Assembly: GCA_015663065.1 (NCBI GenBank)
Contig: DQSX01000192.1
Coordinates: forward strand, 1 to 34,328
Direction of reading: 5' to 3'
Length of the DNA stretch: 34,328 nucleotides
From: Sulfurovum sp.
GTDB lineage: Bacteria > Campylobacterota > Campylobacteria > Campylobacterales > Sulfurovaceae
Shown: positions 2,677-34,328 of the stretch, piece after piece
How positions within the stretch are numbered: the stretch's first letter is position 1
How the letters are laid out: every line of letters begins with the position of its first letter
Program-made: the position numbers and the translations under genes
The notes under the pieces: generated by a model
Database searches by the model: none
Told to the model about the DNA's origin: nothing
The model's input: the letters and a program-made list of their open reading frames with translations, nothing else

Positions 2677-3085
2677 CTGGCACCTCTTCTTTTCTACTAG
2701 CTATCTCATTGAATACAATGTTCACACCGTTATAGTTACTTGCTGCTTCTTTCTTTGTGTCTACACCCAACTTTTTCTCCAACTCGTAGAACTTAAAGAC
2801 TTCTTTGATGGCTGCAAGTCTTGTACGATCCTCGTAATTCTCCAATATTATCTCTTCAAGTACATCCATTGAAGCAGTAGCAAGTTTGGCAAATCTATCA
2901 CTAAAGAAGTTCTTCTCCAGCTCTGTGATCTTTTCCAACACTCTTTCATCTTTAAGAAGAAGGTAGGCTTTTCCATTAGCATAGGTTTCAGAGTACCCAG
3001 CTTCAAGGGCAGCATTTTTGGCATCACGGCTTGTAACATACTTTTCGCAAAACTGTATCTGCTTCTGTGTAAGCGATGCCATCAT
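2669..3085 (-). CDS. terS: Phage terminase small subunit (Terminase_2-like)
   Basis: LTQKQIQFCEKYVTSRDAKNAALEAGYSETYANGKAYLLLKDERV is the typical TerS N-terminal HTH; overlaps terL by 8 bp. Start may be the next Met codon (3082). Confidence 0.87.
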   Translation of the reverse strand: MMASLTQKQIQFCEKYVTSRDAKNAALEAGYSETYANGKAYLLLKDERVLEKITELEKNFFSDRFAKLATASMDVLEEIILENYEDRTRLAAIKEVFKFYELEKKLGVDTKKEAASNYNGVNIVFNEIASRKEEVPDE

Positions 3086-9817: not shown

Positions 9818-10570
9818 TCAATTTTCAATAAAAATATATTCATCCCCAGCACTATATGATGACAAATTTAATCTTAGGTTGTGATTTACAAGTATTGCAG
9901 GAGTTACAATAGATAAACGAAATGGTAGCAATGCAGGTGAATTTACAAAGTCTCCTACTGTACTTTTTCCTTCCCTTGTTGCCAATAGTGTAGCCTCGCA
10001 TAACAAAGCTATTGCATCATCATCCATTACCTCTTTGGTATTACCCTGTGCATAGCATCCCTTATCATCAGTCTCTTTTAGAACTCCCCAATAGACAAAC
10101 GCTCTAATAACATACTTCGCATATCGTCCAATGGTGTCACGGTCACCATAGTGCTCTTTGAGCCTAGAGATGATCTGTTTTTGTGTCACCTGGTCTTGTA
10201 AATTGAGCAGTCTTCCTGTTTGAACAGCCGTGTTATACCAAAACGGGTAAGCTGCGCATAGCATTGCCCAATGCATTACGTTAGCCAGATCAGGTTTGTC
10301 TTTTATAAGACTAAGCGCATCATCTCTAAGCGGTAAGATCTCTTTTGCCGGTGTCACCCATATATTCATGATGTTATTGACGGCAAAGGAACGGGTATTC
10401 TTGCTTCTCTCTCCTACTGATCCATCACCTTTACGCTCAGATAGATACTCATGGAGCTCCGCTCTAATTGATTTCGCATCCAAGCCTGACAGTAGAAGAT
10501 TGACAGCCTTGTCCAGCCATTCAGTTCTAATCGCCTGTTTGATGCCTATTGTTTCATGTCGTTTACTCAA
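9818..10570 (-). CDS. BrxA-like protein at the end of the BREX operon
   Basis: Starts within the PglZ stop (4-bp overlap); position matches brxA in type 3 BREX as remembered; sequence similarity by eye only. Confidence 0.5.
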   Translation of the reverse strand: MSKRHETIGIKQAIRTEWLDKAVNLLLSGLDAKSIRAELHEYLSERKGDGSVGERSKNTRSFAVNNIMNIWVTPAKEILPLRDDALSLIKDKPDLANVMHWAMLCAAYPFWYNTAVQTGRLLNLQDQVTQKQIISRLKEHYGDRDTIGRYAKYVIRAFVYWGVLKETDDKGCYAQGNTKEVMDDDAIALLCEATLLATREGKSTVGDFVNSPALLPFRLSIVTPAILVNHNLRLNLSSYSAGDEYIFIEN

Positions 10571-15382: not shown

Positions 15383-17252
15383 TTAGTCCCATCTCTCTTA
15401 GGAATCTGGATGGTTTCTTATTCCACCCAAAATATTTTTTAGCATAACTTAAATACAAATTCTTTGAAGACCTGGTAATTGCAACAAAGCAGTTTCTTCG
15501 CTCTTCTTGAATTGACTTTTTACCGTTTTTGATTGCGAAATAGGTTGGGAACTGCTCCTCTACCAATCCTACAATATAGACATTTTCAAATTCCATTCCT
15601 TTGGCTGTATGTACCGTTTGTAATCTCACACAATCTCTTGAAAGAGCTTTTGATTTTGGTGACAAATCCATCTCTTGAAGAAATATATGAAGTGCAACTG
15701 AATCTCCATACTCTCGTATAATTTGATTTGAAATACGATACCAATTTTCTTTGTCCTCACCATAGTCTGGATAGAGGTCGTCATCGTCTTCCTGCATATT
15801 TAATGAGTCAAAATACTCGAAAGACTGATCTATAAATGATCTAAAATTCAATGTATCACACAATTCCTTTTCACCTATTTCACAAAATGGTTGTAGCATA
15901 TCACTTTCTGTAGCCAACATGAAAAATGCTCTAAGTGCAGTTATCTCTTCTACACTTGACTTTGTATAAACATCTTCTGCAGATATAGTTATGCCATTGA
16001 GTTTTGTCACAACAGAGCAGAGCTTATTTAGGATACTTCTTGAACTAGGTGTATTCGCAAGTTTTAAAGAAAAGTAAATAGTCTGTGTCAATGGGCTTGT
16101 AAAGTCTTGTTGCTTACTGACAATCTCTGCCATTACTCCATTGTCTTTCATCGTTTCTTTTACTTGAGTGAGAAGCTTATTGCTACGAGCAATGACCAGG
16201 CACGAGTCACGTTGTTTGTTGGGAATAGTCATAACTTTTTCCATTAATCCTTGAATTTCATCTTCAAAAGTATCAAAGGCTTCAACTTGTACTGCTCCTG
16301 TCATTTCATTATGGGATATTCCCGGAATTCTCGATTGTAGTCGGTCACTATTATGCTGAATAAGCTTATTGGCAATTTCTACAACTTCCTTTGGACAACG
16401 GTAGTTTTCTGGAAGTTGAACTACATATGGTTCGTAATCCTTTTTAAGCTCTTCAAGCCTCTTAGGGTCTGCACCATTCCACTGGAAAATAATTTGGTCA
16501 TCATCTGCAACAACAAAAAGATTTGCAGATTTTGGTTCAGCAATAAGTTTAAGGATTTTATATTGTGCAAGATTTGTATCTTGAAACTCATCTACACAAA
16601 TATATTTATAGACCGTCTTTACTTGTCTGGCAACACGTGGCATAGTCTCAAGAAGTTTTCTTGAAAAGTACAACATGGATCCAAAATCCAATTGATTGCC
16701 TTCAATAAGTTCATTTATATAACCATCAAATATGGCTTTTAAGCTTTCATATTGTTCTTTACGATCAGACTTAAAATGTTTCGATAACTCCTTGCTATTA
16801 ATACCACGAGTGAACATTATATCAATCTTTTTTAGGGCATCTTCTGGGTTACTTATTTCTATTTCACTTTTATCTTGTAGTTCTTTGAGGATTGCAACAC
16901 GATCTTTATCATCTGTAATAACAGAAAAGTCTGGCTGTAAACCTAGATGGCTTCCATGTTGTCGCAAGAGATCAGTACAGAATGAATGAAAAGTACGTAA
17001 CTGAACCCTGTGATTATCATCACCTATGATATTCTGAATACGATTTTGCATCTCATTCGCTGCCTTAACAGTAAAGGTCAGACCAAGAATTCGGAAATTC
17101 TCATCAAGACTATTTTTAATCAAATTAGCTATTCGAATTGTCAATACAGCTGTTTTACCAGATCCAGGTCCAGCCAAAACTAATATAGGACCATTTTCCC
17201 ATTGTACTGCTTGACGCTGGTTTTCATTGAGATCTTTTATTACAATATTCAT
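15372..17252 (-). CDS. UvrD/PcrA-like superfamily 1 helicase (GajB-like)
   Basis: NENQRQAVQWENGPILVLAGPGSGKT, CVDEFQDTNLAQ, LQTVHTAKGMEFENVYIVGL, RNCFVAITRS; directly follows the OLD-family gene. Confidence 0.85.
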   Translation of the reverse strand: MNIVIKDLNENQRQAVQWENGPILVLAGPGSGKTAVLTIRIANLIKNSLDENFRILGLTFTVKAANEMQNRIQNIIGDDNHRVQLRTFHSFCTDLLRQHGSHLGLQPDFSVITDDKDRVAILKELQDKSEIEISNPEDALKKIDIMFTRGINSKELSKHFKSDRKEQYESLKAIFDGYINELIEGNQLDFGSMLYFSRKLLETMPRVARQVKTVYKYICVDEFQDTNLAQYKILKLIAEPKSANLFVVADDDQIIFQWNGADPKRLEELKKDYEPYVVQLPENYRCPKEVVEIANKLIQHNSDRLQSRIPGISHNEMTGAVQVEAFDTFEDEIQGLMEKVMTIPNKQRDSCLVIARSNKLLTQVKETMKDNGVMAEIVSKQQDFTSPLTQTIYFSLKLANTPSSRSILNKLCSVVTKLNGITISAEDVYTKSSVEEITALRAFFMLATESDMLQPFCEIGEKELCDTLNFRSFIDQSFEYFDSLNMQEDDDDLYPDYGEDKENWYRISNQIIREYGDSVALHIFLQEMDLSPKSKALSRDCVRLQTVHTAKGMEFENVYIVGLVEEQFPTYFAIKNGKKSIQEERRNCFVAITRSSKNLYLSYAKKYFGWNKKPSRFLREMGLIGE

Positions 17253-18961
17253 TAATTGTCCCCTACTGTTTCTGTCAACTTAGATAATATGTCTTTTATT
17301 TCGGGAGGTACTCCTTCTGCACCTATTTCTTTCATAAGAAATATGGATTCAAGTGCAGCAGCAGGCTTAGAAAAGCCACGAGTCTTATTGATGATTTTAT
17401 ATACCTGATGCCAGTATTCTGAAGTACCTTCTTCTTCCGTAAGTTCTGCTACTTTCTGTGCTCCAACACCATCTCTATATGGCTGACCATATCCACTACA
17501 ACAGAGAAGAATATCGATATTTGGATGTGTCAATTTTGATATATACCTGGCTTCATCTCTATCAGCTAAAAGTTCTTTAGCTGCATCAATATATTTCTGA
17601 CCACCATCATCAGCATCAGCAATAAGGTGCCAATTAATACCAAGGGCATCTGCCACTTTAATAAAAATTCCTGGACCACCTGCTTGACTACATTCAACTA
17701 GTCTTATCCCATGCCTATGAAGATTTATACCTAATATATCTGCACACTCTGTAAAAATAGAGACATCTGTTTCTCCTTCTACCAAGAGCCAATATTTCGC
17801 AAATAACAGTTCCCCTCGATTTCTACGAACGTGATGATTGAATTTTCTTAGCTCTTCACTTGTAAGTAGTCCTTCAGGAATAGAATGACAACTAATTGAT
17901 GTATCTTCTCGATTTAGTCGTCTTAATTTTTCAACAGGTACTTCTGACAATATGTCTCCTGAATGTGTAGCTATAATTTTTTGACCAGGAAGATCTTTTA
18001 GTAGATGCCATACTGCACGTGTTGCATTTGGATGCAAGTGTGCTTCAGGTTCTTCAATTGCAATAATAGCCTCAGCATGTTGGTCAGTATCAGCTTGAAG
18101 ACGTTTTTTTAGATATGCACTAAACAGTAAAAGTACAGAAAGGCTTTGTGTACCTTCCCCATGACTGCGAATAGGAATTTTTGCATTAGAATTAGTAAGC
18201 AGATTTACTTCGGTATAACGAAGTGATTTATATATATCCGAAGGTATTGGATCAACAGAGACTGGTTCGGTATGTCCTACTGAAACTAAGTCAGAAATAC
18301 GTTTTACTTCATCTGTAATATCATTAAAGCTTGAATGGGCATCTATAATCTTTTGATTTACTGTAAATAGTTCTGCTTCCAATGCTTGTTTTGTTAAATC
18401 ATCAATATCTTTATTTTTAATGAACGATGACCAGTATGTGGCCTGCCCATGAAATTCATCCTTAGCAGCCCTTAAAGCACTTTGAAAAAAGAATGGACGT
18501 AGTTTACGCAATTCTTTAATCATATTTTGTTTATTTGGTATTTCATTATCAGCAGCATCAAGAAATGACCAATCTTGAGTGAGTTCTGCATTCCCCAGAT
18601 CATATTTTCCTGTCAATCGTAGTTTAATTTCTCCGTACTCTGCTCCAACAATTACATCATTTAGTGCTTGAGTAATATATTCTGGCCATAAATGTTCTTC
18701 GGATTCTAAAAAACTAAAAGTAAAAATAATTGGATCACTTGATGCAACATCCGGATGTTCATTATCACGATAAAAATCGTATTGAGAAAAATTGCATGTT
18801 TTGTTTGACTTGATAGTATCTAAGCCAAATCGAAGTGCCTCAAGAATAGAGGTTTTACCACAGTTGTTTTCTCCAATAATAACTGTTATCTCTCTATCTA
18901 ATTCTATTTCAAGTTCAGTTATTCCTCGGAATTTTTCTATTTTTACCTTATTCAGTCGCAC
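17252..18961 (-). CDS. OLD-family ATP-dependent nuclease with TOPRIM domain (GajA-like)
   Basis: VIIGENNCGKTSILEALRFGLD (Walker A), SHGEGTQSLSVLLLFSAYL (signature), AIIAIEEPEAHLHP (Walker B), YWLLVEGETDVSIF...HLIADADDGG (TOPRIM). Confidence 0.88.
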   Translation of the reverse strand: MRLNKVKIEKFRGITELEIELDREITVIIGENNCGKTSILEALRFGLDTIKSNKTCNFSQYDFYRDNEHPDVASSDPIIFTFSFLESEEHLWPEYITQALNDVIVGAEYGEIKLRLTGKYDLGNAELTQDWSFLDAADNEIPNKQNMIKELRKLRPFFFQSALRAAKDEFHGQATYWSSFIKNKDIDDLTKQALEAELFTVNQKIIDAHSSFNDITDEVKRISDLVSVGHTEPVSVDPIPSDIYKSLRYTEVNLLTNSNAKIPIRSHGEGTQSLSVLLLFSAYLKKRLQADTDQHAEAIIAIEEPEAHLHPNATRAVWHLLKDLPGQKIIATHSGDILSEVPVEKLRRLNREDTSISCHSIPEGLLTSEELRKFNHHVRRNRGELLFAKYWLLVEGETDVSIFTECADILGINLHRHGIRLVECSQAGGPGIFIKVADALGINWHLIADADDGGQKYIDAAKELLADRDEARYISKLTHPNIDILLCCSGYGQPYRDGVGAQKVAELTEEEGTSEYWHQVYKIINKTRGFSKPAAALESIFLMKEIGAEGVPPEIKDILSKLTETVGDN

Positions 18962-18963
18962 TG

Positions 18964-21732
18964 TTAGTCTCCTCTTCTCGTAATCGACTGATCATACCAC
19001 ATCAACAATTTCGGATCTTCTTCCAGCACATTATTTGGTATCTTTTCGGATATGGCTATGATGGTTCCGTAGTCTCTCTCTTGCCATGCTTTTTTAAAGC
19101 CTGCTCTTACTGCTTCTATTCTAAAGAGTTTGAGTTTCTTCTTCTCTGTTTTGTAAGCCTCGAACTCTTTTAATAGTGACTTTTCACGAACTTTTTCAAG
19201 GTCACCTGCTTTATTAGGGTCTGGAACGTACCAGCGGTTGTTGGCTTTCTCCATAAGTCCCGGATCTTCCTTATCAAGCTTTCGCATATCTTTCCAATTA
19301 GAAGATAGGTAGGTATGAATTTGTTCTGGTACCTTTGTAGTGCCATCATACATTAGAAAGTTCTCTTCGAGCAGTGTACTAAGTTCAAGCATCTTCTCAT
19401 TCTTACTCCAGCCACTGGTCTCTTGCATAAACTGTGGATTAAGGTCTTGAAAGGTTTGTGGTTTTTGCTTGAGTTGTTGTCGAAGCCATGCAATGGCTGA
19501 TGACTCATCAGAGACAAAGAGAGATACTTGTACCAAATCTTTAACTCGCATCTTTTTTTTGTCATATTCAGCTACTTGTTCAGGCAAAAAGAACATTCCA
19601 TCTCTTTCTGCAAAGCGTTGAGCTAAACCTAGTTGAAAATTTTGTGAAGAGATGGGTATCATATAACCTTTTTGAACATAATAAGAAATAACCTGATCAT
19701 AAAGAATCCGTGAATCACGTTCAGGAATAATATCCAGTTTCCCGACAGATCCTTTTGTAATGGGCAAATAGCTCAAATGTGTACGAATAAAATCCCAAAC
19801 ACCATCTTCGGTTTGTGCTTCTTGCTGAAAACGATCTTCAAAGCCACCATTGGGTTTATATACAGAGATGACAAGGTCTTGTTTTACTGCTGTCTTTGTT
19901 GTTACAGCTTTAAAGCTTCCTTGTTGTTTATCTAGCGCTGAAACATTCGCTACAATAAATCCTGCATCATTAAGTGCTGTTTGTATGCTGTTCCATACAG
20001 AGGCCTTTGTATTGGAAAACTCAACAGTCATCCATCGTCCTGGCTTTAGAATTTTATAATCTTCTTTAAAGCTTGCTGCCATTAAGTCTCTATACTCGTT
20101 TAACCCTTTGTTCTGAGAACTGTTTACTATAGCTTCTGTATTATTATTTGTTTTTACCCTCAACCACTCTTCCCAAAGCGAACTGAGTTCTGAATAGTTT
20201 AAATTTGCTCCAAATGGAGGATCAGTAAATATATAATCTGCAGAAAAATTTGTTTCTTCTGTCATGGATTGTGTTGAAACTAGCGAAGGAACCTCGATAT
20301 ATTTAAAAGCTGTTATGAGCTTTTTTAACTTATTTACATATGCAATAAATATATTTGATTCAGAGATTTGAGAGCCAACATAATATGTACCACTCAATGG
20401 GTTGTAAGGGAAAGAAACTCCTGGTCTGTAACGATTTAACCTACTCAGGTTTATTAGCTGAGAGTTAAACATTAATAGAGATTGTTTAGATTTGCATCTC
20501 TGACGTATGGCTGCCAATAACCATAGGTTCCGTTTACTATAAAAATGATGGACATGAGTTAGTCCTATTTTGTCATTTCTACGAGTTTCTTTGCCTTCTA
20601 TCATTCTGTTTGTAGGAAACCAATATGGTATTGTGCTTTTATCAATTTTTTCTATTACCTCAAGATCAAACTTATCAGGTATTTTGTCGTAACGCTTTTT
20701 CCCAACAAGATAATTGATTTTTACTGGAATTTGTTTAGCTTGCTTAATTGTTTCATCAATTGATGAATCATAAATAGTTGTCCAAGCCCTGTCAAGCTTG
20801 CGCTTAATAAGCTCTGCATTACAATGAGGGCAAGGAAAGGGATCAAGGACCTTACCTGCATCTTCATCTACTGCTGATTCCCAAAAGATCACTTCTTGTG
20901 TACAGTCAGGGCAAATAAATACATCTGACCAAACTGTATAATTTATTTTTCCTATACTACCATCAGTATGCATCGTATCATACATCCAGCCATACTCATT
21001 TTCAACTTCTTCAAGAATTCGTTTAGCTTCTTTCTCAAATTTATTTATATCTATAGGTGTATTATAATTGTAAGATATAAAAGTAGCAACGGGAGAAAGA
21101 TCATTAATAATAGCACGTCGAATACCTAGTTTGGAGAATGGTACCCAAGTTGTTTTACCTTCTTCATCATACTGTTCTTGTAAAATAGTATTATCTTCCT
21201 GAACCTTGTAACCCAAAGACGATACTGTATCCCTATCTCCACACATTTGTGCAGCTACCCCAGTCATCCCTGTTCCGGCAAAGCCATCAAAAACAATATC
21301 ACCAGGTTCGGTATAATGTAATATGTAGCGCATAATTGCTTTATGTGGTACTTTTGTATGATAAGTATGAGCATTATAAATAGGATCACCTTTCCCTTCG
21401 CTAACATCAGCAGCGAAAGGTTCTCGATGGTAGTGATAATCAACTGGTTTTGTAGGTTTGTCAGCTTCCCATTCAGTAATAAACTCAGCTATCCAAGGGT
21501 TTGGACAGGCAGTATAGTATGGAGGGTCAGAAAGCTCAAGAATGTCTCCATCGGTACCTATAGGGAAACCTTCTACATTGCGAAAGTCAGGATCTTTGAG
21601 TTTTTCCCTTAGTTGTTCTTTAAAGTAACCTCGTCTTGCTTCATCATTTTCAAACTCCATACCAAGGCATATTACCGATCCTGATGATTTTTCTTCATAA
21701 TGCAGATCTAATTTTGGATTATCTTTTGCCAT
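18964..21732 (-). CDS. pglXI: BREX type 3 DNA methyltransferase PglXI-like
   Basis: LSDPPYYTACPNPW (motif IV-like) before IVFDGFAGTGMTGVAAQ (motif I), CxxC zinc-ribbon pairs (CPDC, CPHC), second TDPPFGANLNYSELSSLW. Confidence 0.85.
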   Translation of the reverse strand: MAKDNPKLDLHYEEKSSGSVICLGMEFENDEARRGYFKEQLREKLKDPDFRNVEGFPIGTDGDILELSDPPYYTACPNPWIAEFITEWEADKPTKPVDYHYHREPFAADVSEGKGDPIYNAHTYHTKVPHKAIMRYILHYTEPGDIVFDGFAGTGMTGVAAQMCGDRDTVSSLGYKVQEDNTILQEQYDEEGKTTWVPFSKLGIRRAIINDLSPVATFISYNYNTPIDINKFEKEAKRILEEVENEYGWMYDTMHTDGSIGKINYTVWSDVFICPDCTQEVIFWESAVDEDAGKVLDPFPCPHCNAELIKRKLDRAWTTIYDSSIDETIKQAKQIPVKINYLVGKKRYDKIPDKFDLEVIEKIDKSTIPYWFPTNRMIEGKETRRNDKIGLTHVHHFYSKRNLWLLAAIRQRCKSKQSLLMFNSQLINLSRLNRYRPGVSFPYNPLSGTYYVGSQISESNIFIAYVNKLKKLITAFKYIEVPSLVSTQSMTEETNFSADYIFTDPPFGANLNYSELSSLWEEWLRVKTNNNTEAIVNSSQNKGLNEYRDLMAASFKEDYKILKPGRWMTVEFSNTKASVWNSIQTALNDAGFIVANVSALDKQQGSFKAVTTKTAVKQDLVISVYKPNGGFEDRFQQEAQTEDGVWDFIRTHLSYLPITKGSVGKLDIIPERDSRILYDQVISYYVQKGYMIPISSQNFQLGLAQRFAERDGMFFLPEQVAEYDKKKMRVKDLVQVSLFVSDESSAIAWLRQQLKQKPQTFQDLNPQFMQETSGWSKNEKMLELSTLLEENFLMYDGTTKVPEQIHTYLSSNWKDMRKLDKEDPGLMEKANNRWYVPDPNKAGDLEKVREKSLLKEFEAYKTEKKKLKLFRIEAVRAGFKKAWQERDYGTIIAISEKIPNNVLEEDPKLLMWYDQSITRRGD

Positions 21733-21746
21733 TTTTCTTTCCTTAC

Positions 21747-22175
21747 TTACAGTAGATTCGCATACGTTGGATTGTCCTTGATGCGTTCTTTCAGTTTGTC
21801 TTTGACTTCTTCCGAGACAATCGGATTGAGAAGCAATGCTTTGTGTGCGAGATAAACAGTCCCAATAAGCCGCTCAGCGACTACATCAGTAATGTTTTCA
21901 TTTCGTGCTAATTGGATATGTATATCTTTGTCGCCTATCCCGACAAGCTTGAAATAGTCAGATTCAGATAAAGGTTCGGCAGCGATCTGATAGAGAGCAT
22001 TGAAATCTTTCTGTTCGATGAGGGTATCAATATCTTCATTGGCTGCTATTGCTTCTGCTTGCTCTGCCTGTGTATCTTTTTGTTCATATTCAGCCTCTGC
22101 ATTCTCTTCTAACCGCTGGTTGTAATCTGTAGAAGCAAAATATTCCGTATCACCTGTTTTATCATCTAAACTCAT
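21747..22175 (-). CDS. Small BREX-operon protein with LRV-like helical repeats
   Basis: KDIHIQLARNENITDVVAERL / YLAHKALLLNPIVSEEVKDKL repeated pattern; 4-bp overlap with the upstream gene. Confidence 0.55.
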   Translation of the reverse strand: MSLDDKTGDTEYFASTDYNQRLEENAEAEYEQKDTQAEQAEAIAANEDIDTLIEQKDFNALYQIAAEPLSESDYFKLVGIGDKDIHIQLARNENITDVVAERLIGTVYLAHKALLLNPIVSEEVKDKLKERIKDNPTYANLL

Positions 22176-23971
22176 CTTCTATCTCCCTTTAATTTATCTG
22201 CTAACCTGTCACCTTTGTCTGTCAATCGATATTTTTGCTTACTGCTTGTGGGCTTGTCCGGAATTGTCATCTCTATAATGCCTTCTTCCATTGACGGAAT
22301 CAAATATGTATCTCTAAAATGTACTTCATGTTTAAGCCCTAATGCATCCTGGATCTCTTTGCGTTTCATGTCCTTATGCATCACAGCCATAAGTTTTTGG
22401 ACTTCATCGGTAACTACCTCGGTAACTTCATCGGTACTACCACGGTACTTGTCCGGTACTTGTCCGGCACTTAGTTCCGACTTGGCACGATCTTCCACAA
22501 AATGACCATATCTTTTTTGCATTGCTTCAGTCAATTCATACAGATTATCATCCAGTGGTTGCAATAGCACCTGCACAACTAATCTATCGATGATCTCTCT
22601 TGCTTGAGCTTTGGTAGAAGCAGTCAATTTACGTACATCAAGCAGAGAGATCCTTTCATTTTCACAGGCATAAGCAAAAACATCTGCATCTTGAGCTGAA
22701 AGATGCACACCGATCTCTGACTGGAAACGCTTTTGCATATCATTGATCAAAAGTTCTTTAAGCAGTACCAACTCAAAATCTTTACTCGCTTTGTTGTTAA
22801 CCATAATAGGAGGTACATTGCCAAGCTCATGCCAGTTACGGAAGATCGCACGAATACCACTACCCGCCTGGTCACTCATACCAATACGACGGAAAGCACC
22901 AACGATCATAGGGTTTCTTACCTCTTTTTCTGTCGGATCCAACAACTCTGACTCTGTGGCGAAGGCATCACCCGGATTCCAAAAACGAGTCTTATCAGTG
23001 AAGAACTGGATGACCGCTTTACGAGTATGGTCACCGTAGTCTCTATGGATAAGAAGGTTGATCGCAGCTTCTCTAAAGGCTACATAGTCAGCAGGATCAT
23101 CATCACGACGCAATGTCTTTGGATCAATCTTGAAAGGACGATCAGAGAGTCGCATATACTTTTCAACAAGCCCTAGCCAAGTCTGAATAATGTTCTCTTC
23201 AAAAACAACTCTATCTCCCCAACGCTCTTCAGGAGTCCAATCATCTGCTTTAGAGTCGATACGCTGATAGTCAAGTAAAGGCTGTGGTAATATTTGCCGG
23301 ACATAGCGGCTTTTACCAAAAAGTAAAATAGCTGCACGAGTGGCATAGAGTTTTTCTCCTTGCTCTACAACATAGTTCCATTCTATTAAAAAGTCCAAAT
23401 CACTTAGTGCTTCATGTTGTCCAGGTCTTTTTTGCTTAAAGCGGTCTCGATACCAACGAAGAGTACCTTCATCAAAAAATGATTCAGACGGGATATTTTC
23501 AACAATCTCACTGTCATATCGAGTGGTAGCTGAGTCACGAACAAAACGTTCAATCTCTGTTTGTGTACACTGCTCATCTCCTGAACCTTTTCGAATGTAA
23601 CTTTGTCGAAGATCCCCTTTGAGATAAACAGGCTTTTCATTTCGAGGAGACTCTGGAATATAAAAAACAAGCATTGTCTTGCCCTCATGCTCAATGATCT
23701 CTTCTTTAACCGTAATAATACGATTCATCTTTCCGCCCGATCGCAGCGTACTTAAAAAATCATTCTGAACCTTATCTACCTCTTCAACACCAACAATAGA
23801 AAGCTGCCCATTACTATCTTTAATACCAAAGACCAACCAACCACCTTGTGTATTGGCAAAGGCGGAGACGCTTTTGTAGGCATCATCAGGCACACCACGG
23901 CTGGCTTTCTTGCACTCAAAGTCATTCCATTCATACTTCTCTATAAGTTCTAGTAACTTCTCTTTTGTCAT
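22172..23971 (-). CDS. AlbA_2 domain / HATPase_c_4-type putative regulator or nucleic-acid-binding protein
   Basis: NDFECKKASRGVPDDAYKSVSAFANTQGGWLVFGIKDSNG (AlbA_2) and FREAAINLLIHRDYGD...NPGDAF...NPMIVGAFRRIGMSDQAGSGIRAIF (HATPase_c_4). Confidence 0.8.
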   Translation of the reverse strand: MTKEKLLELIEKYEWNDFECKKASRGVPDDAYKSVSAFANTQGGWLVFGIKDSNGQLSIVGVEEVDKVQNDFLSTLRSGGKMNRIITVKEEIIEHEGKTMLVFYIPESPRNEKPVYLKGDLRQSYIRKGSGDEQCTQTEIERFVRDSATTRYDSEIVENIPSESFFDEGTLRWYRDRFKQKRPGQHEALSDLDFLIEWNYVVEQGEKLYATRAAILLFGKSRYVRQILPQPLLDYQRIDSKADDWTPEERWGDRVVFEENIIQTWLGLVEKYMRLSDRPFKIDPKTLRRDDDPADYVAFREAAINLLIHRDYGDHTRKAVIQFFTDKTRFWNPGDAFATESELLDPTEKEVRNPMIVGAFRRIGMSDQAGSGIRAIFRNWHELGNVPPIMVNNKASKDFELVLLKELLINDMQKRFQSEIGVHLSAQDADVFAYACENERISLLDVRKLTASTKAQAREIIDRLVVQVLLQPLDDNLYELTEAMQKRYGHFVEDRAKSELSAGQVPDKYRGSTDEVTEVVTDEVQKLMAVMHKDMKRKEIQDALGLKHEVHFRDTYLIPSMEEGIIEMTIPDKPTSSKQKYRLTDKGDRLADKLKGDRR

Positions 23972-23972
23972 A

Positions 23973-26900
23973 CTATTCTATTACCAAACGTACTTTGGCA
24001 GGATCTTGCCCTTTGGTTAGATTATCAATATAATCATCAAAGCGTTTTTTGATCTCATCCGGTGTTGCTGCACCGCCACCAGACTGCATAGCTTTTTGAA
24101 TATCACCCTGCTTGATGCTTACTTTAACTAAGCCCGAAAGTACCTCTTTGATAGATTGTACAAAGAGTGTATCTACTGTACCTGGAAGTTCTTTAGAAGC
24201 GACAAAATCATTAATCATTGCCTTTTCGTCATCCCCAAGAAGTTCAATATTTGCCTGTGTCATCGGGTCTTCAAGGTTGTTGATAATAGTCTGCGTCCAG
24301 CTCTCCAACAATCCATCTAACTCAATGTCAACTTGAGTAAGTTGCTGACTACTGGATGTTGTGATAGGCTCTACAGATGGTCTAAAGTTACAATGTGGAC
24401 AAATAGGTGATGTCTCAAGCTCCTGTTCACTTATATGGAAACAGCTTTTAATATCTGCAAGTTTATCTTGAAGGTCACTCAGTTGCTGTCGTGGCATAAG
24501 GTCGATGTTTTCCAGGAACTGAAGCGTATGCAATCGGCTATCAGAGAGTAAATGTGCTTTTTGCCTATCATCATTTGCATTGAGCCTTGCTTTGGTATGC
24601 AGTGACATATAGATCTGTATATAGTCTTTCTTTAAGCCCTTAAGTTTAGATGTGATCTCATTTGACTTTGCTTTTAATGTATCGACATCAATATTTTGAA
24701 GCGCATTAAGGACATCTTCTTTGGTTGCCTTGAGACTTTCAGTCCATTTGTCATCAGCAGGAAGAACTGCTTCAGCAGTAGAGAGCCAACTAGCAAGCTC
24801 TGAATGTATGGCAACAAAATTCTTTAGTGTAGAAAGGGATACTAAATGCGAAAGAGCAACATCATGCTGCTTTATTTCCTCTGGTGACAAACGAAAGTTT
24901 TTAAGTTTCCCTGGTGTTGAATAGACCTGAAGTCCCTCAAAAAAGTTTTTACCACTTTCAATTTGCTCCTGTGAATTATCCATACCGCTTGCTGCAATAA
25001 GGTCTATGCCCCAAAAACTTAATCCTTCACGGATATTTTGCTGTGCCATTACCAGATCTTTTACGACCTTACCGATAGCATGCTGAAGTGTTTGAACAGG
25101 CTCGTCTTTACCTTGCATGATAAGCTGTGCATTTCCCGGTGGTAAGCCAAGTGTTTCAAAGAGAGCTTTTAATGCAGGAAGGTTCCACTCTTTTGGCTGT
25201 TCAAGATGTTTGAAGTTAATAAGCTCGTCCATACTCGTAGCAGCAAGAGACTGCAATGCTGTAGCATCAAACTTTTTTCCAGTAACCGCTAAAACAATGT
25301 CACCGGAATAGACAAGTGAAGCCAAGATCACCACTGTCCACTCAGGTTCGAGTCTCATCGATGCAGGGTTCATGTATTCTAAACCATGATCATCTTGTAA
25401 GATCTCGTTATGGTTGACTACCTGTCCATGTCCCTTCTTTTTGACAAGATCGAGTACATATTTGGCATATTTGGAAGCATAAGGATCCAACTTTGCACCG
25501 TCGAGAAGTTCTAAAGCATCAAGAACAGCTGTGGCCTGTTTGGTTCTGTTCTGCCCGGCTATGGTTCTAAGTACATCCTGAGCTGCTTGTGCACGGTTAT
25601 TGCCTGTAATTTTAATGGAAAATGTTGGATACTCCAGTGCACTCTCTTCAAAGTGAGTTTCCAAACAAATACCGGAGATCGTATTGATCAAATCACGGAA
25701 GTTAATGGTATCATGACTGGAGAGACCAGCCAATTCACGAATATTTTTATCTTTCCCCCACGCTATCAATGATTTGGTACGCCCCTGGTAAGTTACCTCA
25801 AAAGCATCTCCCATATGTGCTTGCAGCCATTTGACCAATTCTCTTATAAAGCCTTGTGCCTTAGATTCGTAAGTTGATTTTGCATGTCCTGAAGAGGTCT
25901 GAGCCAGATCCAATGCAGCCGCATAACTTTTCAAAATGGTATCAAAAGCTTCATCGTTTCCAGAAAGTCGGAAGAAGACTTCATCACTCTTCTTTTCATC
26001 TTTAAAACGAGTGGTATCAAAAGGCTGTACAAAATAGAGGTAGAAATCACGAGGTGGTATGACTGTGGAACGCTCATTTGGTGCACCGAAGAAAAGGTAT
26101 CCAGTACGTGCAGCTTTACGCTGAAGCCATTCAAGTTCATGTTCCCATATCTTATAGCCTGTCACATAGGTTGCTGTATCTTGGTACTCCATAACACGTT
26201 TGAGACCTTCATAATAATAGCGATCAAGCTGGGCATTGTCTAAGGTTTCAGCACGGCGGTCGATTAGAGCATCGAAATCATCTGTCTTCTGAAGATCCAG
26301 ATAGTATTGACCATTATCCGGATTGGAACTGATAAATTGACCGCTGACTGTCTTGTGTATCTCTCTCAGTACAGTTTCTACATGTACAAGCAGATCGTTA
26401 TCTACCTCATCACCACCAAGCTCAGCGATCATTGGATCATACAGACTTAGCGTGTCTCGTAATTCTTGTGCAGTCGGTCCAAGTTTAGCATGAATATCAC
26501 CAGTGGTGAGACGATGTACTGAGAGTGCATCGATGATACGAAGTGCCATTGGTTTGTATTGTGGTCGGGTAAAGGCACTGTTAATTCTGGACTCCAAAAC
26601 ATTGCTGCATTCGATGACATCACGAATCTCAGGAATCGTTCTAAAAGAGGGGTTGCCAGTGAGTGTTTTCCAATAACTGTCATAGGCAATCAAACCAGGA
26701 GCATCTGTCGGCACCTCTTCATTAAGCACTTTTTTCATAGAGTTGGAAATCGATTTTAGAATTTCACGCTTTTCTACGGCCGTCACACGCTCAAAGGTGT
26801 CAATATAATCAGGGTGTATCGGAAAGAGACGAACAAACTCATCCATTCGCTCATTCATGTTGGAATAGAACCTGGCATAAGGTGTTAAGTGTTCTCGTAT

Positions 26901-27707
26901 TTTCACCAACTGATCAGGACTCTTTTTTAGAAGTCTTTGCGCAACAACATACTTGACATCATTTCTCGCTATCAGCACTTGTTCAAATCGGTCTTTTACT
27001 CGGCGAAGGCTATCGGCAACAAAAGCAAATCTTGGGCTGTCAAAGATAGCTTCCTGGACACCGGCAATAAGTCTAAAACGGAGATCTTTACATACTTCAC
27101 CCACTTCTCTTAAAAAATTGAGATCCAAAATAAGCTCTTGATCTTTTCTTGTTCGCAGATAATCGAGGAGTTCGTCAACAACAAGGAGTAATCCCTGATC
27201 AGGATAAACTTGACTGAAAGCATCCATCATATCTTCAAAAGCACCTTTATGGCTCGAGATAGTATCAGCATCAGGGAATGTATAATCAACACCCATTTGT
27301 TCAAGACCCTCTTCAAGTTGTGCCACCAAAATATCTCTAAGCGACATGGTAGTAGCCCCGATCTCCATTCGGATGACCTTGAATTTTCCTGCGATCTGAG
27401 TGGCAGCATCAGCAACAGCATCATTACTAACTTCTCCGAGTAAATTCTTCTCTTCTGCCAAACTTGAAATAACAGACATCAAGTGTGACTTACCGGTTCC
27501 ATAATTACCAACTATCAATAAGCCTTTATTGTCCATCGGCACATCAAACTGTAGTTGCGGGATAATAAGATTGACAAGACGATCACCCATTTCATCAGAG
27601 ATAACATAGTTTTTAACCAGTTTCTTTGCAGCCAACGATTCATCTGCATCTCGTAATTGTACAACCGTCTCAATCGGATCAAACTCAATTAACTCACTGT
27701 ATTTCAT
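23973..27707 (-). CDS. brxC: BREX type 3 ATPase BrxC-like (DUF6079-type)
   Basis: [38 protein letters not shown] Walker [16 protein letters not shown] Walker B, 1244 aa, C-terminal CPHCNFRP. Confidence 0.87.
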
Positions 27708-28168
27708 ATCTCAACCTTGTCTTTGTTTATTTCTATCATCAATAAATCCTTGCTATCATAACTTCGATACTCCGGGTGCCCTTGTTCTGCATATATAAGC
27801 TTGCCGTCTCTTACTTGGCCATTCCAAAATGCAATAATAGTTTGATTCCTGGAAAGAGACTCAAGTAGGCGCAAGGGATCCTGTCCCAATTCTACATCGA
27901 AGAGAATCTCCACCTGATCCAAAAGAATAGTTTTATTAGGTTGGACAACCTCATTCATAGATTTTGAAAGATACAGTTTTCGCTGTCTTGAAGTTTGACT
28001 CAGTAATCGCTTTGAAAGTTCAAGGTTAACATTTACAGCTTCTACATCCAGCCGGGCTGAGATCTCTTTTGCAAGCTGTTCATGATCTGCCTTTTCATCC
28101 ACAAGCAGTATCAAACGATAATACATATCAGCTGAAGTGTTTATTGCATCAAGTATCTTTTTGATCAT
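27704..28168 (-). CDS. brxF: BREX type 3 BrxF-like protein
   Basis: 154 aa immediately upstream of brx[17 protein letters not shown]...[43 protein letters not shown]. Confidence 0.75.
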
Positions 28169-28384
28169 CTATTCAACTTTACTTTGACTGCTCTTATCAA
28201 CCGTAAAGCTTAACTCCAAAGCATCCATGACAGCCCTAATAGAACTAAAGCGAACATCTTCACCTGCCAATATCCTGTTAATAGTTCTGACCCCTACACC
28301 AGACTCTTGAGAGATCTTCTCAATCGTCCAATCAAGATCATCTTTCCGTTCCCGAATACTCTCAATTAAGTACTTCTGCCGCAT
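28169..28384 (-). CDS. XRE-type HTH regulator at the head of the BREX operon
   Basis: WTIEKISQESGVGVRTINRILAGEDVRFSSIRAVMDALEL; start ATG 28384 preferred (AAAGG upstream) over 28414. Confidence 0.7.
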   Translation of the reverse strand: MRQKYLIESIRERKDDLDWTIEKISQESGVGVRTINRILAGEDVRFSSIRAVMDALELSFTVDKSSQSKVE

Positions 28385-28402
28385 GACACACCTTTTAAAA
28401 CT

Positions 28403-28431
28403 TGTATAAGACATTATGCCAAATATGTCAT
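28403..28431 (-). promoter_or_regulatory. Candidate BREX operon promoter with palindromic operator
   Basis: Minus strand ATGACA-17 bp-TATACA; palindrome GACAT-N10-ATGTC at 28410-28429 spans the spacer and overlaps the -35 box. Confidence 0.5.
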
Positions 28432-28968: not shown

Positions 28969-29481
28969 TCAAAAATCTGCACCAACATAAATATATTCGG
29001 GGAAAGGATCTTTTATACTTGGCATGGGTTTAAAAGTCTTTCTAATCCTTGTAATCTCCAAGAGGATACAATTTAACTCACTAAGATAAAACTTCATCTT
29101 TTCATCATAATCATCACAACAGATTCTTTTTGACATTTGATCATTGTCAACAAATCCATTATCCGTTTTCCCTATCTTCTGAATACTTTTCATCATCTCT
29201 GACTCAAACCATCGTCCAAGCTCCCTGGCTTTAGATTTAGCGCTTCGTTCAAGAATGGACAAAAGTCCAGAGGGATACAAGATACTCATTTTTCGGTTAC
29301 CATTAGGTGTACTTACCATTGCAGTGCCTTTGTCTTTCTCGGCTACCATTCTTAGCATATTGCTAGAGTCCTCGTATTCCAAGATGGTTGCAATATCTTT
29401 TGCGACCACACATGGTCTTTCATATCGATCTAAACCAGTTCTGATACCATTGTTTTCAGATAAATTAATTTTTGTTTGCAT
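28969..29481 (-). CDS. Bro-N domain phage antirepressor-like protein
   Basis: PCVVAKDIATILEYEDSSNMLRMVAEKDKGTAMVSTPNGNRKMSILYPSGLLSILERSAKSKARELGRWF; SD AAAGGA before ATG 29481. Confidence 0.8.
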   Translation of the reverse strand: MQTKINLSENNGIRTGLDRYERPCVVAKDIATILEYEDSSNMLRMVAEKDKGTAMVSTPNGNRKMSILYPSGLLSILERSAKSKARELGRWFESEMMKSIQKIGKTDNGFVDNDQMSKRICCDDYDEKMKFYLSELNCILLEITRIRKTFKPMPSIKDPFPEYIYVGADF

Positions 29482-29513
29482 TTTTAATCCTTTAATGTTT
29501 TTATGCATAATTT

Positions 29514-29583: not shown

Positions 29584-29723
29584 GACCCCTTAAAAGTGTG
29601 GCTTTGTGTCAAATATAAAAAGTATAGAAAATGTAGAAAGTGTCCTGTAGCTCTACACTTGTCACACTTTTCACCTTTATCATACTTTCTATATATTGCA
29701 TATATATACACTTTTTAGGGGAC
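29584..29723. other. Candidate replication origin / iteron-like region
   Basis: Inverted 16-mers GACCCCTTAAAAGTGT (29584-29599) and ACACTTTTTAGGGGAC (29708-29723), 14/16 match; additional AAGTGT copies on both strands; AT-rich middle; next to helicase and primase-like genes. Confidence 0.4.
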
Positions 29724-30830
29724 AGAAATCTGTGACTGGATCGAATCAATATTCTTTGAAACAGTATCAATGACTGAATACATATGAATATGATTTCGTT
29801 CACCGGTTTTTTTGATCTGCCAGTGCGTATCTACATATCGTTTAAGGACGCTTTTAAGCTCCTTGTTGCTTCCGTCAAAGTCGTCATCCTCTTTCACAAG
29901 TCCTTCAAGTTCTGATTTAGGTATTGACCCCTTCGAGCTTAAAATACCCTTGATGATCGTAATGAGATAGAAATCCTGTCTTTGTTGCGACAGCTTGTCC
30001 GTATCTACTTGACCGTCAATCATTTCAACACTTGAGGGATCACCTTTTCTAAAAGTGAAACTCTGCTCTTCAAAAAAGTAACGAACCCGACCTCCCTCTT
30101 TAAGGGTAGAGATCTTTGTGTGCTCCTCATCTCCATCCATAGTCACAAGTTTTAACAGAGCATCGGAATCTTGCTCGATCTCTGCTGTTCCTGCAAAGTT
30201 TTCACCATCCTTATTGGTATGATGCAGAGAAATAAAAGTTGCACCTTTAGCTGTAAGGGCCTTGATCCTGTGAAGCACTTTTGCATTGGTGCTTTTGCTG
30301 ATAATATCAGGGTTGAGATATTTCAGCGTATCAAGCACGATGACTAAATTTTCCGGATTCTTACTCTCTGCTACAAGCTCTTCTACTACCAACATTAATT
30401 CATTGGCTGTGCCATCAGTGATAATACTATAGCGATCATCTAATCCTTCCTCTTCTAAATGCTGCTCATAGTTTGCTGCCATACCTAGTTGCCCATCAAG
30501 ATAAAGGTAGTAAACCTCTGCTTCACTGTGCTCTTCAAGGAGCTCTTTCATAAGATGCAAAACAATCGTTGTTTTACCACTTCCTGCTGCACCATAGATG
30601 ATGATATGGAATCCTCTGGGTAGTATGTTTTCCAGGAAAAAATACATATGCAGTGCCCGTTCTCTATCTTCTCTATTCATTCGCTTGCCTTTCAATTTAT
30701 CTTTTGCAGATAATGGTATAGTCACATTATCATTGTTACCAGAAGCCACTAGAGAACTGTCAGTTACCAGCTTTTTGTTCTCTTGTACTTCAACGCTAAA
30801 GTTAGTGAGATTCTTTATTTTTGAGTCCAT
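29715..30830 (-). CDS. RepA/DnaB-like AAA_25 replicative ATPase
   Basis: IIIYGAAGSGKTTIVLHLMKELL, NLVIVLDTLKYLNPDIISKS, ATFISLHHTNKDGENFAGTAEIEQDSDALLKL; SD GGAGG before ATG. Confidence 0.8.
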   Translation of the reverse strand: MDSKIKNLTNFSVEVQENKKLVTDSSLVASGNNDNVTIPLSAKDKLKGKRMNREDRERALHMYFFLENILPRGFHIIIYGAAGSGKTTIVLHLMKELLEEHSEAEVYYLYLDGQLGMAANYEQHLEEEGLDDRYSIITDGTANELMLVVEELVAESKNPENLVIVLDTLKYLNPDIISKSTNAKVLHRIKALTAKGATFISLHHTNKDGENFAGTAEIEQDSDALLKLVTMDGDEEHTKISTLKEGGRVRYFFEEQSFTFRKGDPSSVEMIDGQVDTDKLSQQRQDFYLITIIKGILSSKGSIPKSELEGLVKEDDDFDGSNKELKSVLKRYVDTHWQIKKTGERNHIHMYSVIDTVSKNIDSIQSQISVP

Positions 30831-31545
30831 AGATTACCTCCTCAACACTATTTTTTTTCAGTGCAAAATCAGTCAAATCGCATTTCTCTTCAGTCATAAG
30901 CTGGATCAGTACAATCTCATCCGCTATATCCTCAATTGCAAGACTCAATGAATGCATACAGTTAAAGGCAGCCTGATCTTCGCTTATGAAAACGACTTTT
31001 CTGTCAGATACTTCTTGCCTTAAGAGTGCAGCATTCTTCAGCTTGAAGCCCGCATAAGGGATCATGATAAAATCAAGCCCCAGCAATACAGCGGTCAGAC
31101 TGTCCCTGTGCCCCTCAACGACATAGACAGTTCTGTCATCACTGAAAATACGAATAAACAGACTTCCGTTAGGGCTAGTACCTGCTCTCGTTTTCCATTT
31201 GATGCCGTCTTTGTACCGCCATTTGTAGGAAATAAGCTTGAGTTCCCAATCCTGATTCTCAAAGCATCCTGATAAGAAGGTATGGCTACTGCTGTCGTAT
31301 CGACCCATTGCTAGAAAGAGTTGCCAGTCATCAGCATCACAGGTTTCTATCAGATAGTCTGGGAATAGTTCGTACAGTGCACTCTGTTGCTCTGCATCTG
31401 ACATATCGATGGCTTTAAAAGCATTAAACTCTTTTTCTACCTGTGTCAAAGTAATGGGCGTGATGTTTCCTGCTCTATTCCTTGAAGACATATACTCAGA
31501 CTCAAGCTTGTATAGACTTGGATTGATATTGGGTTTACTCATCAT
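30802..31545 (-). CDS. TOPRIM-domain primase-like protein
   Basis: VYVVEGHRDSLTAVLLGLDFIMIPYAGFKL...KVVFISEDQAAFNCM; SD AGGAGG places the start at ATG 31545 or 31542. Confidence 0.7.
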   Translation of the reverse strand: MMSKPNINPSLYKLESEYMSSRNRAGNITPITLTQVEKEFNAFKAIDMSDAEQQSALYELFPDYLIETCDADDWQLFLAMGRYDSSSHTFLSGCFENQDWELKLISYKWRYKDGIKWKTRAGTSPNGSLFIRIFSDDRTVYVVEGHRDSLTAVLLGLDFIMIPYAGFKLKNAALLRQEVSDRKVVFISEDQAAFNCMHSLSLAIEDIADEIVLIQLMTEEKCDLTDFALKKNSVEEVIYGLKNKESH

Positions 31546-31840
31546 AATCCTCCTTGCTAATACCAAGTTCTTCACATAGCCAATTCATCGTCTCTGGAAG
31601 TGACTCAAATGCCCTGTAGCCGTCAAAGAGCAGGGCAACTATATCACCATAGTGCTCTCCACTTCCGTAGTCATGGCAGCTTCCATCTTTGTTGATCTTA
31701 CAGGAGGGTGTTCGTTCCTCCCGTACCTTGAAGAAGCCTTCACGGCTTACCTCTATACCTAGAACATTCAAGACCCGGACAATATCCGTATCTGTACTTG
31801 TTCTCTCTTTTATCGCCTGTCTGAGTAGCTTGTAATTCAT
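31535..31840 (-). CDS. Degenerate CHC2-like primase N-terminal protein
   Basis: EERTPSCKINKDGSCHDYGSGEHYGDIVALL aligns by eye to CHC2 primase fingers lacking most zinc ligands; start re-assigned to 31840 (SD AGGTGG). Confidence 0.55.
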   Translation of the reverse strand: MNYKLLRQAIKERTSTDTDIVRVLNVLGIEVSREGFFKVREERTPSCKINKDGSCHDYGSGEHYGDIVALLFDGYRAFESLPETMNWLCEELGISKEDYDE

Positions 31841-31841
31841 A

Positions 31842-32051
31842 TCAAGCACCACCTGGCAGGAATGCTTTCTCTCTGCTTTCGATCCAGTCAAATACTTCAC
31901 TTTCTCTCCAAGCTACTGCTCTTTCAGAGATTTTAACTGGTGCGGGGAAAGTGCCCTTGTTTACAAGGTAATATAATGTCGAATTCGACTCTATCCCTGA
32001 TATATTAAGAACTTCCGGTTTTCTCATTAGTCTTTTTGATTTCTTGTTCAT
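31842..32051 (-). CDS. alpA: AlpA-family regulator
   Basis: VLNISGIESNSTLYYLVNKGTFPAPVKISERAVAWRESEVFDWIESR is a classic AlpA/prophage excisionase-activator layout. Confidence 0.85.
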   Translation of the reverse strand: MNKKSKRLMRKPEVLNISGIESNSTLYYLVNKGTFPAPVKISERAVAWRESEVFDWIESREKAFLPGGA

Positions 32052-32081: not shown

Positions 32082-32181
32082 ATTGTAGCGTATTAAAATA
32101 CTTGAGTCAAGTGTTTATACTAATATAATACTTATATCAGGTATTTTAACACTTGACATGATTTAATATATTAAGTATACT
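32082..32181. promoter_or_regulatory. Divergent promoter switch between alpA and the HTH regulator
   Basis: Plus: TTGACA (32153-32158)-17-TATACT (32176-32181). Minus: TTGACT (32105-32110)-17-TACAAT (32082-32087). Both -35 boxes are inside inverted copies of AACACTTGAC (32106-32115 minus; 32148-32157 plus). Confidence 0.75.
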
Positions 32182-32209: not shown

Positions 32210-32800
32210 ATGGCTACTGCAAGAGAAATCGAAGAGATACTAGGTATATCATCAAGAACGATCGAATCCTGGTCAAGCACAAGAGATGATAAATATTTAT
32301 TATCAAAATTCCTAAAATCATATTCAAAACTTGATTTAAAAAGTAGAATCGAGAGAATACTTGAAGAAGAAGAAATCATGATATTAGATAAACAAAAGTT
32401 TTTTGAGAAGATACGTGATAATTTTCAACGTTTTTTTCCAGATGTGCTCGCTTCTGAAATATCTGATTCTAAAATTGGTGTTGATACACGAACAGGCATG
32501 AGTGATTTAGTTATTAAAACAAGAAGTACAATATATTTCTTAGATGAAACTTCTCAATTACCATCCAAAAATATTATTTCAAAACGCTGCAAAAAACTGC
32601 TTTCAACTATTCATAATTCTAATAATCAATATTTTGACGGGATTAGCAAAATAAACTGCATTTACATAACAGCAAAAAAAGGAGCAGGAAAAGGTATGAC
32701 TATTAAAGTTGATGACTCATTAGATTATGTTGTTACAGCTATTGATATTGATACAGTTGCGAAGGAATTATATAGCCAAGAAAGAATAATTTTAAGATAA
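32210..32800 (+). CDS. HTH regulator (repressor candidate) with a C-terminal nuclease-fold-like region
   Basis: MATAREIEEILGISSRTIESWSS HTH; divergent to alpA; C-terminal SDLVIKTRSTIYFLDETS. Confidence 0.55.
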   Translation: MATAREIEEILGISSRTIESWSSTRDDKYLLSKFLKSYSKLDLKSRIERILEEEEIMILDKQKFFEKIRDNFQRFFPDVLASEISDSKIGVDTRTGMSDLVIKTRSTIYFLDETSQLPSKNIISKRCKKLLSTIHNSNNQYFDGISKINCIYITAKKGAGKGMTIKVDDSLDYVVTAIDIDTVAKELYSQERIILR

Positions 32801-32846: not shown

Positions 32847-34058
32847 CTATTGCGCATACTTAACCTTTATCTCATCCAAATAGTCACACCACCACACCAT
32901 CAGTCTAGTTCTCTCAGGTAGATACTGTGCATGATTATATACACCTCTTATTGACCCGTCTTTATGTAGCATTTGCAACTCAATTGCATCACTGGAAACA
33001 TTATGCACATGCATATTATCATGAAGTAAGGTTGAAGCCGTATGTCTAAAACCATGAGAAGTCATTTTCCCCTTGTAGCCCATTCTCTTTAGAGCCGTAT
33101 TTAGAGTATTTTCACTTAGCATTCTTTTATTTGATATTGGCGAGGGGAAGACATAGTCACTTCTGTCTTTAGTGAGTACTGCTGTTTCATTTAAATTATC
33201 CATTAGCTGCTGAGTGATTGGGATCACATGCTTTAGATCATTTTTCACCTCTTCTTTTGGGTAGGTTATAAGCTTTTTCTCAAAATCTATATATTCCCAC
33301 AAAAGACCTCTAACATTCCCTGGTCTAAGAAACGTCATGGATGCATACTTCAATGCAAGCTTTGTAATAGGATCCCCAAAGTATTCATCCATACTGATGA
33401 GCAATTGTGCAAACTCTTTTTCATTGTCAATATGATCATAATTTTTGGATATTTTCTTGCCAAGTAAAGCTCTTGCATCTATATCTGCTGCTGTATTGTG
33501 TGTGGCATCTCCTGTACTTAGTCCATACATATATACTGATTTTAATAATGTCAAAATCCTCCTAGCTGTTTCAGCCTTACCTTCATTATGAAACTTGAGT
33601 AGTAGTCCACTAATGTCTGGGATGGATATACGATCTATCTCTTTGTCTCCAAAAGATTCAATCATATATCGAATATATCTCTTATTACTTTCAATTGTCG
33701 AATCACCCCAGTCTGCACTTTTCTGATCCAGCAACTGTGTAGCTATATTTTTAAAGATTTTATTTTCATCTATTTCATTCTTCTGTTTCTCTTCAGAAGG
33801 ATCAATACCATCAAAAACCATCTTACGATACTCTTGTCGTACTTCTCTTGCTTCTTTCAAAGTTGTGCCAGGATAAGTACCCACAGAAATAGAATTCCGC
33901 TTACCATTCGGTCTTGTATAATCAAACCTGAAATACTTCCGACCCTTTGCGGTAACAACAAGTCGCAACCCGTCACCATCACTTAATGTATATTGCTTCT
34001 GCTTGGGCTTGGCACTCGCTATTTTGGTGTCTGATAGAGGAACAACTTTTTTAGGCAT
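32847..34058 (-). CDS. int: Tyrosine recombinase/integrase (P4-like, DUF4102 N-terminus)
   Basis: LSDTKIASAKPKQKQYTLSDGDGLRLVVTAKGRKYFRFDYTRPNGKRNSISVGTYPGTTLKEAR; catalytic FLRPGNVRGLLW, HGFRHTASTLLH, GVYNHAQYL. Confidence 0.95.
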   Translation of the reverse strand: MPKKVVPLSDTKIASAKPKQKQYTLSDGDGLRLVVTAKGRKYFRFDYTRPNGKRNSISVGTYPGTTLKEAREVRQEYRKMVFDGIDPSEEKQKNEIDENKIFKNIATQLLDQKSADWGDSTIESNKRYIRYMIESFGDKEIDRISIPDISGLLLKFHNEGKAETARRILTLLKSVYMYGLSTGDATHNTAADIDARALLGKKISKNYDHIDNEKEFAQLLISMDEYFGDPITKLALKYASMTFLRPGNVRGLLWEYIDFEKKLITYPKEEVKNDLKHVIPITQQLMDNLNETAVLTKDRSDYVFPSPISNKRMLSENTLNTALKRMGYKGKMTSHGFRHTASTLLHDNMHVHNVSSDAIELQMLHKDGSIRGVYNHAQYLPERTRLMVWWCDYLDEIKVKYAQ

Positions 34059-34146
34059 TGCGGTAATTCTCCTTTTTGCGGTAAAAGTAACGACTATAAA
34101 AAGTCTTACCGCAAAGATTACCGTAAAAAAACTTGGATTACCGTAA
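34058..34146. repeat. Candidate integrase arm-type sites, right end (5 copies)
   Basis: TTGCGGTAA at 34058-34066 and 34076-34084 (inverted); TTACCGCAA 34106-34114; TTACCGTAA 34118-34126 and 34138-34146. Confidence 0.65.
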
Positions 34147-34237
34147 ATGTGGTTGGATCTCTTTGTAGTGAAAAGTTGATTAAGTCTCTTACTTAAGGGG
34201 CTTATCGGATTGTTTTGGAAGTTATTGAATTAGTGTA

Positions 34238-34325
34238 TGGCCGGGAGAGGGGGATTCGAACCCCCGGAGGTATTACCCTCACCGGTTTTCAAGACCGGCA
34301 CGTTCAACCGCTCCGACATCTCCCG
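34238..34325 (-). tRNA. tRNA-Ser (anticodon TGA)
   Basis: CGGGAGATGTCGGAGCGGTTGAACGTGCCGGTCTTGAAAACCGG...GGTTCGAATCCCCCTCTCCCGGCCA: acceptor, anticodon stem, long variable arm, T-arm and encoded CCA. Confidence 0.95.
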
Positions 34326-34328
34326 ACA

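Follow-up and report, generated by a model that had tools for sequence, protein, structure and literature searches.

The DNA analysed here, called the window, is the whole stretch of 34,328 nucleotides of a Sulfurovum contig. Towards its right end an alpA operon and the gene of a 196-aa protein diverge from a gap of 158 bp, next to an integrase gene and a tRNA gene, and a large defence cargo lies to the left.

240-893: AbiEi gene
1435-3085: genes of the large and small terminase subunits, close to the contig's left end
9818-28168: BREX cluster (BrxF, BrxC, PglXI, BrxHI, PglZ, BrxA), type III-like
28169-28414: HTH_3 protein, its gene immediately upstream of brxF
28969-29508, minus strand: Bro-N protein (PF02498, E 9.3e-11; phrog_463 anti-repressor, E 7.5e-14)
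29715-30830, minus strand: RecA-like/AAA ATPase, overlapping the toprim gene and last of the coupled operon (PF13481 AAA_25, E 1.5e-10; phrog_6357)
30802-31545, minus strand: toprim/primase-like protein, overlapping the 101-aa gene (phrog_6088 DNA primase, weak, E 0.014; relatives L022-L025)
31535-31840, minus strand: primase-like N-terminal protein of 101 aa, starting 1 bp after alpA, with the same order alpA-pri-toprim in another island (L028)
31842-32051, minus strand: AlpA-family excisionase/regulator of 69 aa, heading the divergent operon (PF05930, E 4.7e-15)
32210-32800, plus strand: 196-aa protein with a helical, HTH-like N-terminal domain and a C-terminal domain of unknown family, a candidate repressor
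32847-34058, minus strand: tyrosine integrase (PF00589 and PF13356), convergent with the 196-aa gene and adjoining tRNA-Ser
34238-34325: tRNA-Ser

The 69-aa protein belongs to the AlpA family, as it scores 55.6 bits with the Phage_AlpA HTH domain (PF05930) against a cut-off of 21; in PHROGs it matches phrog_2790, excisionase and transcriptional regulator. The four genes alpA-primase-toprim-ATPase abut or overlap each other. The 101-aa primase-like protein has no family match in Pfam, and the viral contigs hold nothing related to the products of the primase, toprim and ATPase genes. Within the BREX cluster a complete GajA-GajB Gabija pair is inserted between PglX and BrxH, and the HTH_3 protein is likely the local regulator of this cluster. 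With the terminase genes and AbiEi near the left end, the element is possibly a satellite or a prophage remnant. The Rfam search returned tRNA only, and therefore no P4-type immunity RNA.

Five ATTACCGYAA-type repeats, direct and inverted, are located between the integrase gene and tRNA-Ser (34057-34147). This type of repeat has 7 matches in the window while 0.9 are expected, and the repeats are probably the arm sites of the integrase. Also, two contigs of this assembly share a terminal 91 bp of tRNA-Ser(TGA) (34238-34328; L058 / L106, G000:C114 end) and diverge exactly at the 3' end of the tRNA, into the island in one case and into chromosomal msrAB/DoxX-like genes in the other, which suggests occupied and empty sites in one sample, or two copies of the tRNA.

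The 158-bp gap contains two related palindromes and one half-copy of them, and these resemble repressor sites. They are given here with the predicted promoters on both sides.

32082-32110, minus strand: predicted alpA promoter, TTGACT-17-TACAAT (10/12 against the consensus), with a leader of about 24 nt and the ribosome site GGGAG
32096-32116, no strand: O1, 21-bp near-palindrome AAATACTTGA-G-TCAAGTGTTT, its arms 9/10 complementary
32126-32146, no strand: O2, diverged copy of O1 (TAATACTTATATCAGGTATTT), centre-to-centre distance from O1 30 bp
32147-32157, plus strand: O3, half-site without a partner (TAACACTTGAC) that overlaps the -35-like hexamer of the regulator promoter and contains the right 10-mer
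32153-32181, plus strand: predicted regulator promoter, TTGACA-17-TATACT (11/12 against the consensus), with a leader of about 22 nt

An earlier note on this DNA described a symmetric switch, in which inverted copies of the 10-mer AACACTTGAC supply the -35 boxes of two strong divergent promoters. There are indeed exactly two copies in the window, at 32148-32157 (+) and 32106-32115 (-). The left copy is the right arm of O1, which extends across the -35 region and the spacer of the predicted alpA promoter. The same note listed ACTTGAGTCAAGT as a further palindrome; it is present at 32100-32112, but instead of being separate it is the core of O1, shared with the left 10-mer. When the window was ranked with a half-site matrix, O1 came out as the highest dyad and O2, a direct repeat of O1, as the second in the 34 kb. 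The partner arm of O3 does not score (-1.7 bits with the same matrix), so that O3 is no full dyad. The layout is asymmetric, with a full dyad at the alpA promoter and only a half-site at the regulator promoter, and hence the reading of symmetric -35 boxes as a paired switch has to be dropped. As judged from the letters, O1, O2 and O3 form a putative cluster of repressor operators rather than a pair of promoters in mirror image.

In the 1.7-Mb assembly the O1 consensus has a single exact match (0 mismatches), namely O1 itself, and only 7 places in 1.7 Mb have 3 mismatches or fewer, O2 among them. The viral contigs hold 8 exact matches, all 8 of them within coding sequence; these were rejected as real sites and taken as chance. 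Because it is unique in the genome and its viral-contig matches are all inside coding sequence, we regard O1 as a local operator. A half-site at 7078 was also rejected as a further operator, as it lies in an apparent short coding frame and is not followed by a -10. No close homologue of the region turned up in the collections searched.

The repeats could have arisen by chance from the AT-richness of the sequence, or could serve only as a cruciform or a bend. When the gap is shuffled by dinucleotides, 6.8% of the shuffles contain an inverted exact pair of at least 10 bp, which is unremarkable alone; a 12/13 inverted pair appears in 33 of 600 shuffles, and the entire stretch can be folded into a single long hairpin by prediction. 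The two divergent TTGAC boxes share 5 letters by definition, with a chance match of the other five at about 0.2-0.3%, and a divergent promoter pair scoring 11/12 and 10/12 occurs in 0.33% of the dinucleotide shuffles of the gap. The combination of sites speaks against chance. A dyad of O1 quality was obtained in 150 of 4000 shuffles, such a dyad with a related second copy in 1 of 4000, and both with a third exact half-site in 0 of 4000, values which are indicative since the thresholds were picked post hoc with the site already seen. Considering this rarity and the uniqueness of O1 in the genome, we hold the chance or cruciform explanation to be very unlikely, and the operator cluster at the divergent alpA switch is real and probably functional.

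Both hexamer pairs with 17-bp spacers were recovered in the consensus scan as claimed, but the two promoters are not equal, with 7.2 against 3.7 bits under a model learned from the host. For this model we surveyed 660 kb of the same assembly, with 433 -10-like sites in 214 upstream regions. TTGACA shows no excess 16-18 bp upstream of the -10-like sites (15.5%, compared with 11.8-17.6% at other spacings; n=433); the E. coli comparison had just 19 sites and was not useful as a control. The host -10-like sites are T-rich at -17 to -14 and have G at -2 (n=433), and the motif learned from the upstream regions is a T-rich tract with TGnTATAAT, the same pattern as published for sigma-70 in Campylobacter and Helicobacter (PMC3656092). 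Together with the character of the related genomes, this pattern points to a host within Campylobacterota. The alpA -10, TACAAT, reaches 7.17 bits and is the top one on its strand (host median best 8.5), while the regulator -10, TATACT, reaches 3.73 bits and ties with TATAAT at 32124-32129. By this model the alpA promoter would be ordinary and the regulator promoter weak. The hexamers are present as the note had said, but it is doubtful whether they should be labelled "-35" in a Sulfurovum host where TTGACA is not enriched at that distance. From this missing enrichment and the promoter scores of the host model, the TTGAC letters may be present as parts of the operators.

We next consider which protein binds the sites. 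The divergent 196-aa protein has nothing above cut-off in Pfam and NCBIfam and nothing below E 0.05 in PHROGs, and these three collections give it no family match to the CI/Cro HTH_3, WYL or P2 C repressor profiles; Pfam HTH_28 comes up at a weak E of 0.21. Its residues 6-111 are related to the L019 and L037 proteins of two other genomes (hhalign E 5.5e-7), and for the C-terminal half homology to the same proteins was unsupported against shuffles. Single-sequence folding gives a helical N-terminus at low confidence (pLDDT 45 for the full-length fold, which was left unused, and 63 for the other model), and the N-terminal fold has no significant match in the PDB. No close relatives were found in the genome, viral, phage or plasmid contig collections. 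Weak order-wide matches, to frames of about 770 aa and to HEPN/nucleotidyltransferase-type pairs, were dropped as unrelated or HTH-only. Related genomes have toxin-antitoxin-like operons with small proteins whose N-termini are similar to its first 50 residues or so. Four genes for proteins with a similar HTH (L004, L042, L045 and L047) have dyads at -44 to -46 relative to the start codon, and from these the sequences suggest that an HTH domain of this type is often autoregulatory. No O1-type dyad was found near the start codons of L019 and L037, the closest N-terminal relatives. As a separate observation, small HTH-like genes at six loci (L004, L006, L008, L042, L045 and L047) have short palindromes (e.g. 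TAGGCGATATTCGCCTA) overlapping their own -10, and they are mostly upstream of nucleotidyltransferase-like genes.

AlpA and the small HTH_3 protein (28169-28414) could also be binders. In the case of AlpA, it would occupy the repeats and regulate its own promoter as an activator or co-repressor, with the divergent gene as a passenger. In EcCICFT073 (PMC6092414) and EcCIMP1 (PMC11773190) the promoter of alpA is activated by AlpA, and Apl of phage 186, which sits between the early promoters and represses both, is a precedent as well (PMC7498355); half-sites in the same orientation are indeed present at 32097, 32127 and 32148. Their spacings, however, are 30 and 21 bp and not the 10-11 bp that separate the direct repeats used by Apl and other recombination directionality factors (PMC7498355). 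Dyadic order dominates in the gap, and L028, whose alpA operon is related to this one, lacks dyads of this kind upstream of alpA, so that we regard control by AlpA itself as unlikely. Since the geometry of O1 and O2 is dyadic and factors of the Apl kind use direct repeats, a homodimeric binder is favoured.

Another possibility is a mutual-repression switch in which the 196-aa protein and AlpA both bind, with opposite preferences. In phage Pf4 the repressor gene pf4r diverges from an AlpA-like excisionase gene, XisF4, whose product also starts replication, the two share a control region, and XisF4 and Pf4r repress each other (PMC7379572). The layout here is alike, and its sites would fit too, as O1 favours silencing of alpA and O3 lies on the regulator promoter. 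Pf4r, on the other hand, is P2 C-like, while the 196-aa protein cannot be placed in a known family and the island is not a filamentous element. Such a switch requires two binding activities, and no separate AlpA-type direct repeats were recognised, which leaves it quite unlikely in our view.

The best overall explanation, to which we give somewhat better than an even chance, is that the 196-aa protein acts as a repressor on O1, O2 and O3 and controls both the alpA operon and its own gene. The 158-bp gap would be the control region of a mobile island integrated at tRNA-Ser. A dimeric HTH repressor, most likely the 196-aa product, would bind the full palindromes O1 and O2, and the half-site O3 would be bound weakly or cooperatively by the same protein. 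Occupation of O1 would cover the alpA promoter and strongly silence the translationally coupled alpA-primase-toprim-ATPase operon, and excision and replication would be off; O3 over the weak promoter of the regulator would allow partial, weaker auto-repression. The layout supports this, with O1 on the better-scoring promoter, the one with the best -10 on its strand in the host-learned model. Once removal or titration of the repressor takes place, for which Bro-N or an infecting phage may be responsible, AlpA would be made and the island would excise and replicate. Derepression by Bro-N is conceivable, as this protein matches anti-repressor families in PHROGs and is a possible anti-repressor by sequence. 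We infer this mechanism with moderate confidence. As to the divergent switch proposed before, its gene layout and operator cluster stand, the latter stronger than claimed since O2 had been missed, but a symmetric shut-off through identical -35 boxes does not.

Other alpA loci put the switch into context. In the L028 island int, alpA, pri and toprim follow each other as they do here and are all co-directional, and both a divergent regulator gene and an O1-like site are missing; therefore the gene and the sites are absent together. L033 and L034 also have no divergent HTH gene at alpA. From these three loci, it seems that the divergent switch was added to a common backbone in a lineage-specific way.

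When compared to known systems, the locus has the back-to-back genes and the operator-like sites of a divergent lysogeny-type switch, with a candidate as its repressor. By analogy, it resembles Pf4r/XisF4 or Stl/xis in the way it may work. The Stl (Rpr) region of SaPI and other Gram-positive PICIs likewise has a pair of divergent regulators, and the genes for excision and primase lie to one side of it (PMC6092414). In Gram-positive PICIs, however, int is co-directional with the repressor gene, whereas here int (minus strand) is convergent with the 196-aa gene (plus strand) and co-directional with alpA. The alpA module of Gram-negative PICIs is closer in this respect (PMC6092414, PMC10111431), as int, alpA and primase are co-directional at the attachment site (primase being assigned from L028 synteny and weak matches) and there is a Bro-N gene. 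Unlike those islands, the locus has a divergent HTH-like gene with operator-like sites, on a contig of at least 34 kb with BREX and Gabija. In type I BREX, BrxR also binds as a homodimer to a pseudo-palindrome with 9/10 matching arms that overlaps a -35 element (PMC9122589), but it is a WYL protein controlling BREX, while the 196-aa protein is without a match to WYL and is located at alpA.

The global repressor of Gram-negative PICIs has been described as unclear (PMC6092414, PMC10111431). An HTH-like gene that diverges from alpA, together with operators across the alpA promoter, would offer a concrete and testable answer for islands in this little-studied host group. We propose only tentatively that an AlpA-type Gram-negative island is silenced by a divergent master repressor of an undescribed family on tandem palindromes. 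If true, this would be the element of the Stl kind for which it is unclear whether Gram-negative alpA islands have one, here in an island with BREX and Gabija, and such control would tie excision to a large defence cargo.
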